A stretch of 53,945 nucleotides of DNA, from assembly GCA_017398945.1 (NCBI GenBank), contig JAFQES010000029.1:1-53945 (forward strand), in the 5' to 3' direction. The notes beneath the pieces are model-generated. The model made no database searches. It worked only from the letters and a program-made list of their open reading frames with translations, and had not been told where the DNA came from. Source of the stretch: Bacilli bacterium (GTDB lineage: Bacteria; Bacillota_I; Bacilli_A; RF39; UBA660). Below are positions 3,829-45,960 of this stretch, piece after piece. The translations under genes and the position numbers were made by a program. The number at the start of each line of letters is the position of its first letter. The stretch's first letter is position 1.

Positions 3829-4036
3829 AAAAAAACATCCATCCCAAAGGACGAATGTTTCGTGGTACCACCTTATTTTTTTCTTAAAAGTCTTAATGCG
3901 ACTAACATTATATCCTACTAATTTTCAGATATACAACTCCCAAGCTACCTTCAATAATTACATTCATTAGTTTACACCAGCCACTAACTCTCTATAGAAA
4001 GGTAATTATTTACTCCTCTTGTTCTTCGTTTTTACA
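3829..4036 (-). promoter_or_regulatory. T-box riboswitch leader of valS
   Basis: The minus strand carries the T-box core AGGTGGTACCACG (3861-3873). An 11-bp terminator stem with a T run follows (3829-3859), one arm of which overlaps the antiterminator. Stem I features are present upstream (AGAGAG, GCTGGTG apical motif). A GTA triplet at 3932-3934, followed by a conserved TATCTGAAAA, is the likely Val specifier. Compared with the ileS leader, the triplet at this place is the main difference. Uncharged tRNA-Val would stabilise the antiterminator and allow valS transcription. Confidence 0.92.
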
Positions 4037-12440: not shown

Positions 12441-12652
12441 TAAAAAAACATTCATCCCAAAAGGACGAATGTTATCGTGGTACCACCTTAATTTTTTTCT
12501 CATTTTTTATAACGCAGAATTTCTGCGAATCATCTTACTATTTTCAGATAATTAACTCCAAAGTGATATTAAATAGCTATTCTTTATTAGTTTGCACCAC
12601 CACTAACTCTCTTAAAAGCTTTCACTATTTAACGTGTCTTTTTCAATGTATT
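12441..12652 (-). promoter_or_regulatory. T-box riboswitch leader of ileS
   Basis: Minus strand: T-box core AGGTGGTACCACG (12476-12488), terminator stem AACATTCGTCC / GGATGAATGTT with T run (12441-12473), and the Stem I motifs AGAGAG and GTGGTGCAAAC. The specifier region reads GGAGTTAATTATCTGAA; ATT or ATC at 12547-12552 fits an Ile codon. A -10 box TATAAT at 12659-12664 defines the likely start. Its terminator arm is nearly identical to that of the valS leader. Confidence 0.92.
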
Positions 12653-12699
12653 TCTTGTATTATACTATTAAATATTTTATTTTACTAGTCCTAAATTTA

Positions 12700-18060: not shown

Positions 18061-18153
18061 ATGAAAACTAAGACTTTTATTATAAAAGTACTAAAGCTCA
18101 TTACTATCATTTTATTTCTCCTTATCATCTTGATAGTAGTTATAAAAAAATGA
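18061..18153 (+). CDS. Small hydrophobic peptide, type I toxin-like (locus 1)
   Basis: 30 codons with an excellent AGAGGAGG ribosome site seven bases before ATG. The peptide is MKTKTFIIKVLK, then about 16 hydrophobic residues, ending in IKK. It has the same design (Lys-rich ends around one membrane helix) as the peptides at 43415-43504 and 43743-43826. A hairpin and T run follow (18166-18206). On the other strand a conserved CTTGAATATAAT box, also found at the 43.7 kb locus, would start a convergent RNA across the 3' end. It was below the size used for routine gene calls. The toxin role is inferred from architecture only. Confidence 0.55.
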   Translation: MKTKTFIIKVLKLITIILFLLIILIVVIKK

Positions 18154-18200
18154 CACTTAATTTTAGGTAGGCATTCAGTGATCCAGACTAAACGTTTACC
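18150..18200 (-). ncRNA. Putative antisense RNA to peptide locus 1
   Basis: Minus-strand box CTTGAATATAAT (TATAAT at 18207-18212) directly precedes a GGTA...TACC hairpin, so transcription would begin near 18200 and run through the 3' UTR and stop codon of the peptide gene. No clear second hairpin terminator is seen, so the RNA end shown is approximate. Confidence 0.35.
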
Positions 18201-18206
18201 TTTTTT
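18166..18206 (+). terminator. Terminator of peptide locus 1
   Basis: GGTA-G-GCATTCAGT, a seven-base loop, ACTAAACGT-T-TACC then TTTTTT; an interrupted stem of about 12 bp. Confidence 0.65.
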
Positions 18207-18265
18207 ATTATATTCAAGTTGCCTTGACATATTCATTGTAATATATAATTACTAATCTAGCAAAT

Positions 18266-42092: not shown

Positions 42093-42119
42093 TTATTCGA
42101 TTACTCTTCTTCTTTTTTT
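42077..42119 (+). terminator. Terminator of ftsK/spoIIIE
   Basis: AAAAGAAGAAGA, 16-base loop with the stop, TCTTCTTCTTTTTTT; the 3' arm overlaps the coding end of the convergent gene. Confidence 0.7.
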
Positions 42120-43189
42120 CTGATTCTTGGATTATTTATTAGTTCAGTTACTAAATCTTCATAAGTTTTAGCATATTCTTTATATTGTTTTCGTAATTCT
42201 TTTTTATACTCTTCGCTTTCTTCTTGGCCTCTAATTAATTTACCATTAACCACACAGCCTGCTAAACATCCACTTTTTATATATTCTGCCAATGTTTCAA
42301 AAGCTTCTTTTGTTTCATCATTATTAAATTCAATATTTAATCCAGTATTTTGAAATTGGCAATCTTCAAATACAGTATCAAGTGTTCTTAGACTTATCCA
42401 ACCTACTTGATGGTTTAAATCATTATCTCTAAAATCACAGTTTATATATTTATCTGATTTAATAAATGCTGGTTTAATACCCGTTTTTCTAAAATTACAA
42501 TTCTCAACCCTTCTGCCAAAAAATTTTAGATTATTGCTTAAATCAGTCCCTTCAAAGTTAACATTTTTTATGATAACTTGCCTGCCAAAAATAATATTGG
42601 CATTTGTATAAGACATATCAATTAAATATGTAGAAGATTCTTTAAAAATTAATGGGAAATTAGGTATTTCATAATATCCATCTTTTCTTTTAGTACCATT
42701 TGAAATTACATAATGAACAACATCCCATTCTATATTAGAAAAATCAAGTTCACTTAAATCTATCTCACTTAATTTTACTTTGCCAAAATAAGGGATTTTT
42801 GGACTATTTTCTGTTTCCGGTAATGATAGAAACAACATATCATTTAATAATTCAGCTGGCAGCTTTAATCTTTCAGCTTTATCTTTTTTATAATCTTTTC
42901 TATCGCAAGTACAGCTTTCTAAAGCTCTTTTTAATTGTTTTTGGCTTGAAGCAGATAACTCACCCCATTTAATTTCACTTAAATCTATGTGTTCAATTAG
43001 CGAATAGAAAAATTTTCCTAAAATTAGTCTATCATCATAACATAAATTTTCCGGATCATTTTCAGATAAATCAATTAATGTCATTAAAGTATCTTTAGGT
43101 AAATATCTTGTACCTGTTGGTTCTTTTTTATATAAAGCATTTGCAATACGCTTTCTAAGTTCTTGTTTCTTAACAAAATTTAATTTCAT
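42101..43189 (-). CDS. Unknown protein with degenerate pentapeptide-like repeats
   Basis: 362 residues. N-terminal helical part, a central stretch (SEIDLSELDFSNIEWDVVHYVIS), then loose five-residue repeats of the A(D/N)LxX type: VNFEGTDLSNN, NCNFRKTG, NCDFRDNDLN, DCQFQNTGLN. These would form a short right-handed beta helix. The C-terminal part is charged and basic (EYKKELRKQYKEYAKTYE). Cytoplasmic. AGGAGGGTTATAA precedes the ATG. Function unknown. Confidence 0.6.
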   Translation of the reverse strand: MKLNFVKKQELRKRIANALYKKEPTGTRYLPKDTLMTLIDLSENDPENLCYDDRLILGKFFYSLIEHIDLSEIKWGELSASSQKQLKRALESCTCDRKDYKKDKAERLKLPAELLNDMLFLSLPETENSPKIPYFGKVKLSEIDLSELDFSNIEWDVVHYVISNGTKRKDGYYEIPNFPLIFKESSTYLIDMSYTNANIIFGRQVIIKNVNFEGTDLSNNLKFFGRRVENCNFRKTGIKPAFIKSDKYINCDFRDNDLNHQVGWISLRTLDTVFEDCQFQNTGLNIEFNNDETKEAFETLAEYIKSGCLAGCVVNGKLIRGQEESEEYKKELRKQYKEYAKTYEDLVTELINNPRIRKKEEE

Positions 43190-43332
43190 TTATAACCCTC
43201 CTATGTAAATATTATAACTTTATTATTAACTTTAGTAAATTACAAATTCAATGCAGTTTTTATAAAGTATGATTGCTTGCCAAAATCGAAAGTTTATGAT
43301 AACATTAGTATGTAAGCAAGGAATCTTGCATA

Positions 43333-43375
43333 AAATAAAAAAGGGAAATACTTAACTTTTGCACGTTGAGTACTT
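43333..43375 (-). terminator. Terminator of peptide locus 2 mRNA
   Basis: Minus strand AAGTACTCAAC, eight-base loop, GTTAAGTATTT then CCCTTTTTT. The same hairpin is the 5' stem of the opposing RNA. Confidence 0.6.
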
Positions 43376-43424
43376 ACCTATTGATGGTTTTGTACTTAAT
43401 CGTAAGATTGAGTACTATTTTTTT
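43343..43424 (+). ncRNA. Putative antisense/antitoxin RNA of peptide locus 2
   Basis: About 82 bases. Conserved box CTTGCATAAAAT (TAAAAT at 43331-43336), then a hairpin with TACTTAAC / GTTGAGTA stem, a spacer, and a strong terminator GTACTTAATC-GTAA-GATTGAGTAC with T7 (43392-43424) that overlaps the stop of the convergent peptide gene. It would pair with the whole 3' UTR of the peptide mRNA. Confidence 0.55.
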
Positions 43425-43504
43425 ATAGCTAGTATCATTAAAGAGACTATTAATAAAATGATAATTAGTATTAGAAATGAGATTAATAGATCCTTTTTCT
43501 TCAT
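43415..43504 (-). CDS. Small hydrophobic peptide, type I toxin-like (locus 2)
   Basis: 29 residues: MKKKDLLIS, a 17-residue hydrophobic helix, ending AIKK. Strong ribosome site GAGGGGAGG nine bases before ATG. Promoter TTGTGA (43593-43598), 17-base spacer, TATATT (43570-43575), giving a leader of about 58 bases. Part of that leader (43535-43548) is complementary over 14 positions to the mRNA's own 3' UTR (43365-43378), a feature of translation-silenced type I toxin mRNAs. The convergent antisense RNA overlaps its 3' end. No annotated homologue recognised; sequence resembles locus 1 and locus 3 peptides. Confidence 0.6.
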   Translation of the reverse strand: MKKKDLLISFLILIIILLIVSLMILAIKK

Positions 43505-43569
43505 AATTTCAAGCCTCCCCTCTAAATGAAGTTTGGCAAGTACTCAACAGTTAAATATTTCCTAGTAAT

Positions 43570-43598
43570 AATATACTACGAATATATTTTTATCACAA
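43570..43598 (-). promoter_or_regulatory. Promoter of peptide locus 2
   Basis: TTGTGA, 17-base spacer, TATATT on the minus strand, start expected near 43563. Confidence 0.55.
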
Positions 43599-43665
43599 GT
43601 GATTAAGTTACTTTTTGTAGATTTTTTGGTTATTGTCCACTCTTCAACTTGAATATAATAAAAAT

Positions 43666-43739
43666 GGAACACTTAATTTTGCTATGTTGAGTGTTTCCTT
43701 ATAGTTTTGCAATCACCTAACTAAGTTAGGTGATTTTTT
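43666..43739 (+). ncRNA. Putative orphan antitoxin-like RNA (locus 3)
   Basis: About 74 bases after box CTTGAATATAAT (TATAAT 43654-43659). 5' hairpin GGAACACTTAA / TTGAGTGTTTCC with loop TTTTGCTATG, then a perfect ten-bp terminator ATCACCTAAC-TAA-GTTAGGTGAT with T6 (43712-43739). The 5' hairpin matches that of locus 2 with paired changes (T-A to C-G), so structure is conserved. The peptide gene it should oppose is decayed. Confidence 0.55.
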
Positions 43740-43742
43740 CTT

Positions 43743-43826
43743 TTATCTTAATATCAAAAAAAGTAATGAAATAAGTAAAAGGATAATGATAAGCAAAAAT
43801 AAAATTAGAAAATCTTTTTTTGATAC
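43743..43826 (-). pseudogene. Decayed hydrophobic peptide gene (locus 3)
   Basis: Reading from 43826 gives a GTA where ATG is expected, then SKKDFLILF, a hydrophobic run and ILR-stop. This aligns with the locus 2 peptide (KKKDLLISF...). No ATG, GTG or TTG start exists in this frame up to the clpC terminator, which lies where leader and ribosome site should be. So the coding part survives but is not obviously translatable. Confidence 0.55.
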
Positions 43827-43853
43827 AAAAAAACTCTCCTTAAAAGGAAAGTT
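43827..43853 (-). terminator. Terminator of clpC
   Basis: AACTTTCC, six-base loop, GGAGAGTT then T7 on the minus strand, overlapping the clpC stop. Confidence 0.75.
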
Positions 43854-45960
43854 AACTTGATTGTAAATTCTTTTTTAAATATTTATTAATATTTTTTAAT
43901 CCTTGTTTTTCTAACTCTAACTCATTAATTATTTTTTCATGCTCTTCTTTTGAAACATTGTTATTCTCTAAAAGATGGATGCATTCGCTTTTACTAATTT
44001 TATTAAATTTAATAACAGCATCAAAATGAGACGATAATTCTTTATTAGAAATATGTTCTAAAGATTCTTTATTAAATCCTAATGATAATTTAGATTCTTC
44101 TTTTGTTGTAGCGATTATTAAAGTTTTATTAAAATTTATTATTTCTCCTTTAGCATCCGTTATGAAACTATCATCTAATATTTTAAATATTAGATTTAAT
44201 ACTTCAGAGGATGCATATTCGATATTATCAAACAGAATAACACTATACGGATAATCTTTTATTTGTTTTAAAACATAATTATCATTATAACCAATATAAC
44301 CTGCTGATACACCAATTAGTTTACTTAGCGACGTCTCTTTTTGATATTCTTTTAAATCAACTATTAAAATTTTAGTATTTGGATTATAAAGGTTAGCTAA
44401 TTGTTTGGCACAGTAGGTTTTACCTACCCCACTAGGCCCGTAAATCAATAAACTTTTTTTAGTATCAATATTTTCTATTTTATCTTTAATATGAAAAATT
44501 ATTTTTTCTAAAGATTCATTTTGACCAAATATTTTATTTTTTAATTTCATTTCTAAATTACTTAAATCAGTCAAAACAGGCATTTTTGTTTTATTGGCAA
44601 TCACCTTTAAAATATCTTCCTCGCTTATTGTTATATTATTTTTACTACTTATTTTATTATTTAATTTTAATTCTTCATTACAATAAAAAGATGCCTTTTC
44701 AAAGTTACCTTCTTTAATACATTTAGTTTTTAAATCATTTAATGTTTGTTTATTCAATAAATGGTTACTTAAATCATCTTTATTTTTAATATTTTGTTTT
44801 AATTTCACATGAGAACAGATTGTATCTAACAGTTCAATTGATTTATCTGGATTACTTTTATTAGATAAATAGCGATCTGCTAATTCTACTATTTTGTCTA
44901 AAATAGGATCAGTCAAAGTAATATTATGAAAGTTTTCATACTCATTTTTAATTCCTTTTAATAAATCTTTAGTTTCTTCTAAACTTGGTTCTTCGATTAA
45001 AATTTTTTCAAAGCGTCTTTCTAAAGCTTTATCCTTGGTTAGATATTTATCATATTCATGGGTAGTTGTAGCACCAATTATTTTTAAATCCCCTCTTGCT
45101 AAATAGGGTTTTAAAATGTCACTAGCACTTATAGCACCTTCTGATCCACCAGCATTTAACATGGTATGAATTTCATCAATAAACAAAATAATATTCTTAT
45201 TATCAACAACTTCCTCAATTATCTTAGTTAAACGCTCTTCAAATTCACCACGATACTTAGTTCCAGCAACCAATGACCCCATTTCTAACATAACAATTAC
45301 TTTATCTTGCAATTCTAAACATAATTCTTTGTTATTTATTAATCTGGCTAACTCTTCAACAATAGCTGTTTTGCCTACTCCTGCTTTTCCAACTAAGATT
45401 GGATTGTTTTTTTTCTTACGAAGTAATACTTCCGTAATTTGTTCAATTTCTTTTTCTCTGCCAATAATATTTTCATCCATACTAATTGTTTCATTTAAAT
45501 TACAACCTATTTCCATTATTTTTAGATGCCCAGGATCTTTTTTAGTATCTTTTAAATCTTTATGAAGTTTTTCAACATCGACACCTAAACCAATTAATAA
45601 ACGAAAAGCAATTCCTTCAGCTTCTTCGATTAAAGCTAAAAGTAAATCTTTGCAGGTTACATTTTGTTTTTTTTGTTCATTTTTATCTTCTAAAGCATTA
45701 GCAATTATTCTTTTTAATAATGGTGTGTATAAATTTATTTCCATATTCTTAGTGCATTTACCTACAACATCAATTAATTCTTCTTTGAATATTTCATATG
45801 TTATATCATACTTTTTTAAAATATTAATACATGTTTTGTCATATTTTAAAATGCTTAATAATAAATGTTCACTACCAACATAAGGATGTCTTAGATTATA
45901 TCTTTCTTCTTCGGCTTTCTTTAATACTTTACTTACTTCTAATCCAAAATTAAAAAACAT
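43852..45960 (-). CDS. clpC: ClpC-type AAA+ unfoldase with shortened, degenerate second ATPase domain
   Basis: 702 residues against about 810. Two Clp_N repeats (1-140). The first AAA domain is intact: GKAGVGKTAIVEELA, ILFIDEIHTML, GATTTHEY, ERRFEKI. A UVR-type segment follows (FEKASFYCNEELKLNN). The second AAA domain keeps Walker A (GPSGVGKTYCAKQL), but Walker B reads ILFDNIEYAS (Glu replaced by Asn), sensor 1 reads IIATTKEES, the arginine-finger INRID region is lost and the C-terminal small domain is absent. A LGF tripeptide in the place of the ClpP-docking loop remains. It should use domain 1 for ATP hydrolysis. GAGG before ATG. Confidence 0.88.
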   Translation of the reverse strand: MFFNFGLEVSKVLKKAEEERYNLRHPYVGSEHLLLSILKYDKTCINILKKYDITYEIFKEELIDVVGKCTKNMEINLYTPLLKRIIANALEDKNEQKKQNVTCKDLLLALIEEAEGIAFRLLIGLGVDVEKLHKDLKDTKKDPGHLKIMEIGCNLNETISMDENIIGREKEIEQITEVLLRKKKNNPILVGKAGVGKTAIVEELARLINNKELCLELQDKVIVMLEMGSLVAGTKYRGEFEERLTKIIEEVVDNKNIILFIDEIHTMLNAGGSEGAISASDILKPYLARGDLKIIGATTTHEYDKYLTKDKALERRFEKILIEEPSLEETKDLLKGIKNEYENFHNITLTDPILDKIVELADRYLSNKSNPDKSIELLDTICSHVKLKQNIKNKDDLSNHLLNKQTLNDLKTKCIKEGNFEKASFYCNEELKLNNKISSKNNITISEEDILKVIANKTKMPVLTDLSNLEMKLKNKIFGQNESLEKIIFHIKDKIENIDTKKSLLIYGPSGVGKTYCAKQLANLYNPNTKILIVDLKEYQKETSLSKLIGVSAGYIGYNDNYVLKQIKDYPYSVILFDNIEYASSEVLNLIFKILDDSFITDAKGEIINFNKTLIIATTKEESKLSLGFNKESLEHISNKELSSHFDAVIKFNKISKSECIHLLENNNVSKEEHEKIINELELEKQGLKNINKYLKKNLQSS

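Follow-up and report, generated by a model that had tools for sequence, protein, structure and literature searches.

A putative type I toxin-antitoxin-like module on a conserved RNA chassis in uncultured gut Bacilli

Anatomy of the unit at positions 43332-43598

The window, i.e., the whole stretch of 53,945 nucleotides that was analyzed, contains at positions 43332-43598 a compact unit in which a short peptide gene on the minus strand converges with a predicted antisense RNA on the plus strand. The open reading frame (43504-43415, minus strand), supported by the ORF list, homologues and pN/pS analysis, has 29 codons and encodes the 29-aa toxin-like peptide MKKKDLLISFLILIIILLIVSLMILAIKK, a K-flanked single hydrophobic helix with a best 19-aa Kyte-Doolittle window of 3.44. 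Its Shine-Dalgarno sequence is GGGGAGG, and a promoter scan placed the promoter TTGTGA-17-TATATT at 43598-43570 on the minus strand; the short frame, the strong ribosome site and this promoter had all been described in the initial annotation, and they held. The corresponding promoter of the relatives was TTGnnn-17-TATAAT in most of 113 units. A small hairpin, CUUC-AUUUA-GAGG followed by GGAGG (43514-43531, minus strand), reaches into the Shine-Dalgarno sequence, and its stem differs among units (CUUUC..GAAAG, CUCU..AGAG). The predicted toxin mRNA, whose ends are inferred and not mapped, is about 231 nt long (43332-43562, minus strand), starts with the leader R1 (GGAAAUAUUUAACUGUUGAGUACUUGCC; 43535-43562, minus strand), which was recognized from the inverted repeats I1 and I7 and from the fold, and terminates with the hairpin H2 and the U-run TTTTTTATTTTA. 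H2 (43343-43378) serves both strands: on the plus strand it forms the 5' domain of the predicted antisense RNA, and on the minus strand it is the terminator stem of the toxin mRNA and the partner of R1; since CCCTTTTTTATTTTA comes after it on the minus strand, the toxin mRNA probably terminates there.

On the plus strand, the hairpin H3 (43392-43415) has a stem of 10 bp, GTACTTAATC-GTAA-GATTGAGTAC, and is followed by a T-run up to position 43424, which makes it the terminator of an RNA on the plus strand. The T-run lies inside the KK-stop codons of the peptide gene, and thus the U-run of the antisense terminator is encoded by AAA AAA TAG; the 5' arm of H3 is complementary to R1. In this region, three terminator-like sites were found vs 0.2 in shuffles. 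H2 and H3 are both present in both RNAs, and each RNA terminates at a different one. The convergent RNA with a ten-bp terminator in the stop region of the peptide, and the two hairpins common to both RNAs, had been proposed previously and were confirmed.

The proposed beginning of the antisense RNA, with a -10 box of its own and a length of 82 bases, failed. When TAAAAT (43331-43336) was considered as the -10 element, the best upstream hexamer gave 2.65 of 6 matches vs 2.67 expected across 113 units, and there was no -35 element. Instead, a generic promoter scan detected TTGCCA-17-TAACAT at 43277-43305 (plus strand), distal to the box first suggested. Across the units, a promoter of the form TTGnnn-17-TATTAT was located 22, 23 or 25 nt upstream of TAAAAT in 102 of 113, and the spacer was 17 in 103 of the 113. 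The lack of a -35 element for TAAAAT, together with a promoter at a near-fixed upstream distance, suggested that the antisense RNA is probably about 113 nt long and bears an extra 5' hairpin. From sequence alone, its start is likely to be some 30 nt upstream of that annotated initially, and the 3' overlap with the mRNA, previously given as about 80 bases, would be about 90 nt. By the same kind of inference, the conserved TAAAATAAAAAAGGG is accounted for by the opposite strand, as the U-run of the toxin terminator. The predicted RNA (43312-43424, plus strand) was matched by the antisense covariance model, named R1 as well, at 43308-43430 (E 1.8e-18). Its extra 5' hairpin, H1 (GCAAG-GAAU-CUUGC; 43316-43329, plus strand), had a stem of at least 4 bp in 88% of the units vs 55% of shuffled sequences, with variants such as AUGAAG/CUUCAU, UGUCAA/UUGACA and AUGCAG/CUGCAU.

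An 85-nt version of the antisense RNA folded at -23.6 kcal/mol (z -4.8). When 41 diverse antisense sequences were aligned, 94.6% of the cells in H2 and H3 were paired, vs 25-42% with the partner slid; 12 of 17 pairs had changes on both sides, amounting to 101 such cells vs 31 in shuffled alignments. Promoters, terminators and hairpins are shown by sequence and covariation, and transcription from this unit is inferred.

Long-distance pairing and leader-antisense specificity

A feature overlooked in the initial annotation is a 28-bp duplex between the 5' and 3' ends of the toxin mRNA, formed by R1 and H2 and interrupted by the H2 loop. The 231-nt mRNA had a minimum free energy of -58.9 kcal/mol vs -34.4 for shuffles (z -6.5), and in this fold the R1:H2 duplex closes the molecule. 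In 117 units, the cognate duplex had a mean energy of -33.7 kcal/mol vs -27.5 when leaders and 3' ends were exchanged (z -16). It reached -25 kcal/mol or lower in 108 of these and was present in the minimum-energy fold of 104. In the aligned set, 88% of the lock cells were paired vs 35-51% with the partner slid, changes on both sides affected 16 of 28 pairs, and double-change cells numbered 104 vs 39 (maximum 69) after row exchange. The lock is thus shown by sequence and covariation, and the silence of the locked mRNA is inferred. The Shine-Dalgarno sequence is not covered by the 5'-3' duplex itself.

The leader is predicted to pair not only with H2 of its own mRNA, but also with the antisense RNA. 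As the complement of the mRNA 3' end is part of the antisense RNA, R1 and the antisense H2 are near copies, each with two mutually complementary arms, and the antisense RNA can therefore pair with R1 too. Moreover, R1 is complementary to the 5' arm of the antisense terminator plus a few preceding nucleotides, and this pairing was stronger in cognate combinations than in permuted ones (-19.3 vs -16.5 kcal/mol, z -11). The leaders fell into the specificity types GAGTAC, GAGTGC, GGGTG(A/G) and GGGTGC, and each favored its own or the nearest type; the neighboring units of the window (43332-43598 and 43628-43823) are of different types. Collectively, these data show by sequence that the best partner of each toxin mRNA leader is the cognate antisense RNA, each type being best or nearly best. 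It is possible that concerted evolution explains part of this cognate complementarity, as R1, H2 and H3 are related repeats.

Distribution of the family and variety of its peptides

We collected 132 distinct units, all with the same anatomy and all derived from metagenome-assembled genomes. In its own genome, the MKKKDLLISFLILIIILLIVSLMILAIKK peptide had four copies when searched with the single sequence and six to seven with a profile. The single-peptide query was positive in 60 of 193 genomes of the family and in 54 of 148 genera, and the peptide profile A1, which covers near-identical to diverged copies, in 168 of 288 sampled genomes of the order, with up to 13 copies. The antisense covariance model found matches in 100 of 145 family genomes, with 1-24 copies each, and by this model the presence was patchy between genera. 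Outside the family, only two genomes of the class and phylum samples contained matches: G519, where a complete unit (L238) encodes the type B peptide MKKRIFVIKVLRYLSIILLLQIIMIIVIKK and might represent a transfer or a misbinned contig, and G788 (G788:C20:3046-3171). In agreement, the 16 positives of a class-wide peptide sample all belonged to the same family. A degenerate IUPAC DNA pattern retrieved 61 stretches in named records, nearly all from uncultured Bacilli or Tenericutes, and many of the samples came from rabbit (Lapin), with some from deer and goat. Searches of phage, plasmid and IMG/VR sequences gave no match to the unit. The search of related genomes that had been suggested, with an RNA covariance model and a peptide profile, therefore found that both recur widely, with the frame and the hairpins conserved. 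As a separate observation, tandem arrays of two to three units in the same orientation, spaced by about 320-445 bp, were seen at L034-L036 (G140), L037, L038, L217 and L228.

Over the first 23 codons, pN/pS was 0.2-0.45 for all but the nearest pairs, and residues M1, K3, K4, D5, L7, I8, I15 and L18 were nearly fixed. Antisense pairing does not explain this conservation, because no more than the final codons lie within the overlap with the antisense RNA. Purifying selection acts on the peptide.

In 15 genomes, the antisense model detected 7-25 loci each vs 2-12 peptide matches, and many of the extra loci encode other peptides: type B, MKTKTFIIKVLKLITIILFLLIILIVVIKK and relatives; type C, MTKREFSQFIIIILLFILVFIILFK and relatives; and type D, MRKSEKYLCNIIILLIIVIIIILIKIVPTI and one relative. 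The RNA chassis thus carries at least three hydrophobic peptides unrelated to the MKKKDLLISFLILIIILLIVSLMILAIKK type, hereafter type A. Most of the units with other peptides kept the duplex between leader and 3' end, mostly at -34 to -57 kcal/mol vs about -18 to -28 with shuffled leaders. The exceptions were L220 and a third unit of the window (18061-18234), one of two further copies that had been overlooked initially; it has a degenerate leader, a 30-aa hydrophobic peptide of type B, MKTKTFIIKVLKLITIILFLLIILIVVIKK (18061-18153, plus strand), unrelated to type A, and an antisense RNA at 18138-18234 on the minus strand (model match E 4.7e-9). Four loci (L165, L166, L045 and L046) encode the peptide MTKKDFLIAALIVIIILLI..., have a diverged antisense side with GCGAGCC repeats and were missed by the antisense pattern; they may be another branch of the chassis.

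The other overlooked copy is a decayed paralogue next to the main unit (43628-43823). Its antisense RNA, of the GGTGATT specificity type, is retained (43628-43748, plus strand; model match E 7.9e-14), and its toxin gene (43749-43823, minus strand) has GTA in place of the start codon and has lost leader and promoter; an intact relative with a GTG start was found at G000:C20:70929-71003. Likewise, the remnants L221, L222, L231 and L232 kept the antisense RNA and lost the leader and the toxin start, with a duplex no better than shuffled. Loss of the toxin while the antitoxin stays is the pattern expected of a toxin, and we regard it as suggestive only, as the remnants were not systematically counted. 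The reverse case, antitoxin loss in L018 and L074, was not accepted: there, the unit meets the contig end, and an assembly join may be responsible.

A tRNA gene lay immediately upstream of the antisense promoter in 29 of the 121 units with enough flank (L004, L007, L013, L014, L016, L024 and 23 others). All 29 were in the antisense direction and none in the opposite one, with a single tRNA at the toxin side; the types involved include Arg, Thr, Leu, Met, Glu, Lys, Ala and Asp. Chance adjacency is expected in well under 1%, an estimate that assumes about 20 tRNA 3' ends on each strand of a 1.2-Mb genome; the observed counts are not independent, as they include related records and repeated lineages. 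A terminator-like hairpin occupied the tRNA-side position in 47 of 132 units vs 7 when shuffled, and the antisense -35 element (TTGTCA and similar) is typically within the loop of this hairpin. Among loci found with the antisense model, such a tRNA occurred at 3 of 26, all three being toxin-less remnants, and the association may therefore be mainly with type A units. The unit at 43332-43598 has no adjoining tRNA. Insertion by recombination at tRNA ends was also considered and set aside, since none of the four loci checked showed a direct repeat of the tRNA 3' end on its far side.

Relation to known systems and interpretation

Comparison with RNA libraries gave no Rfam match at the gathering score, and a permissive E-value yielded chance matches only. 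For type A peptides, no family of Pfam, NCBIfam, PADLOC or PHROGs was found at cut-off, and for types B, C and D none of Pfam or NCBIfam; the Pfam family Fst_toxin was absent from the genome, and no solved structure matched MKKKDLLISFLILIIILLIVSLMILAIKK by sequence. One family member matched HokA at E 0.12 only. The peptide motif was not found in the literature searched; metagenome small-protein catalogues were outside this scope and may include the peptide with no function assigned. The earlier suggestion that the peptide matches no known family, and may represent an undescribed one, was thus supported; two observations that would have refuted it, a lack of conservation of the frame and hairpins and a match to a known non-toxin family, did not come true.

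The likeness to type I systems such as fst/RNAII and txpA/RatA was also supported, and the comparison was widened to the fst/par layout, the hok/aapA lock and the presence of two terminators. Regarding fst/RNA II (par of pAD1; Fst/Ldr), the features compared are those in a review of Fst (PMC7472228). Both systems have convergent promoters and RNAs overlapping at their 3' ends, repeats that supply a second antisense pairing site in the toxin leader, a Shine-Dalgarno sequence inside a 5' hairpin and a toxin mRNA of about 230 nt (PMC7472228). However, the new peptide lacks the P/D/S/TxxxG motif, the W and the charged tail and has no match to Pfam Fst_toxin; two separate terminators (H3 for the antisense RNA and H2 for the toxin mRNA) take the place of the shared bidirectional one of par; the antisense RNA is about 113 nt long rather than about 40 nt; and, unlike par of plasmid pAD1, the unit is chromosomal, with no plasmid or phage match. 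With aapA/IsoA of Helicobacter and hok/Sok it shares the 5'-3' long-distance duplex that closes the full-length mRNA, the several paralogous loci per genome and the antisense specificity of each module, according to the description of the aapA3 long-distance mRNA lock (PMC6733600). It differs from them in that the Shine-Dalgarno sequence is outside the long duplex, the peptides are unrelated, the host class is Bacilli and the antisense RNA overlaps the 3' end of the mRNA and not the 5' region, which is where IsoA and Sok act. The pairs txpA/RatA and bsrG/SR4 of Bacillus subtilis are chromosomal Gram-positive type I systems whose antisense RNA overlaps the toxin 3' end, and in both respects the new unit is alike; their toxins are longer than the new peptide, and there was neither a RatA match in Rfam nor an NCBIfam match to a TxpA-like toxin. 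Since the units lack at least one tested feature of each of Fst, hok/aapA and txpA/RatA, we file the units as a type I-like superfamily of their own.

Two type I criteria are met. The hydrophobic peptide gene with ribosome-binding site and promoter is evident in the sequence, and an antisense RNA with its own promoter and terminator, complementary to the mRNA, is supported by sequence and covariation, its transcription being inferred. We consider it likely (probability of about 0.78) that the unit represents a chromosomal module of the type I toxin-antitoxin-like kind, in which transcription, repression and toxicity are inferred. It belongs to a very common, apparently undescribed family of uncultured gut Bacilli whose toxicity is predicted. 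In the mechanism that we propose, the 231-nt mRNA would be born locked, with its first 28 nt paired with the 3' terminator hairpin and the Shine-Dalgarno sequence in a separate small hairpin. The convergent antisense RNA of about 113 nt, made from its own promoter, would overlap the last 90 nt of the mRNA and, being complementary to the leader too, may capture the leader, make the duplex accessible to RNase III, or both. Once the lock is opened by 3' trimming, or the antisense supply drops, the peptide would be made and would act on the membrane. The 3' trimming, the antisense repression and the membrane action are, like toxicity, inferences. One point against a toxin module is that up to two dozen units per genome would be unusual for a lethal toxin.

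A rival explanation is that the gene encodes a non-toxic small membrane protein that regulates a transporter or a membrane complex and whose level is adjusted by an antisense RNA acting in cis. The same anatomy would fit this, as would the purifying selection on the peptide; there are no toxicity data, the near-invariant K3 K4 D5 could be a contact motif, and one member resembles the SecE helix at E 4e-4. However, SecE mimicry was rejected, because few members match and a generic hydrophobic helix suffices, and this rival does not sit well with unrelated peptides on one chassis, tandem arrays of several copies, toxin parts that decayed while the antisense RNA stayed or patchy presence between genera. 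We thus regard it as unlikely. Even less probable is a MITE-like or repeat mobile element, with R1 and H2 as its transposition ends and with an ORF and RNAs that are merely incidental. It is favored by the inverted repeats close to both ends, many copies, varied neighbors and directional siting behind tRNA genes, but conservation runs outward through both promoters, the ORF is under selection, the repeats covary as RNA pairs and no far-side direct repeat of the tRNA end was found in the four loci checked, although target-site duplications were not systematically examined. That a hydrophobic ORF and hairpins arose by chance in AT-rich DNA, which does yield many short ORFs, is all but excluded by conservation, as the anatomy recurs, with compensatory changes, in 132 distinct units.

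With the toxin-antitoxin-like module as the preferred reading, a bolder version is that one chassis, equipped with four or more unrelated short membrane peptides, has spread to up to two dozen sites per genome of about 1.2-1.5 Mb in this uncultured Bacilli family, preferentially behind tRNA terminators with the antisense -35 element in the terminator loop, so that antitoxin supply could follow stable-RNA transcription as a sensor of growth rate or starvation. This extension is tentative, and the evidence falls slightly short of tipping the balance in its favor. The tRNA siting nevertheless offers a concrete, testable link of stable-RNA transcription with toxin control. Type I systems are usually found via peptide similarity; in this family, what is conserved and can be searched for is the RNA chassis, whereas the peptides are exchangeable, suggesting a general way to find such systems. 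The units also suggest a natural set of orthogonal RNA-controlled peptides; they are remarkably common in the streamlined genomes of uncultured gut bacteria, and the libraries searched do not describe them.

Other genes of the window were recorded on the minus strand. On one side of the main unit, 42101-43189 encodes a 362-aa protein that has a pentapeptide-like stretch and matches the Hailong defence effector HalA below threshold (E 1.6e-5), and on the other side, 43852-45960 encodes a 702-aa ClpA/ClpC-like AAA+ ATPase, well under the curated ClpA and ClpB cut-offs. Two T-box leaders (3844-4035 and 12458-12655, both on the minus strand) were found upstream of apparent valyl- and isoleucyl-tRNA synthetase genes.
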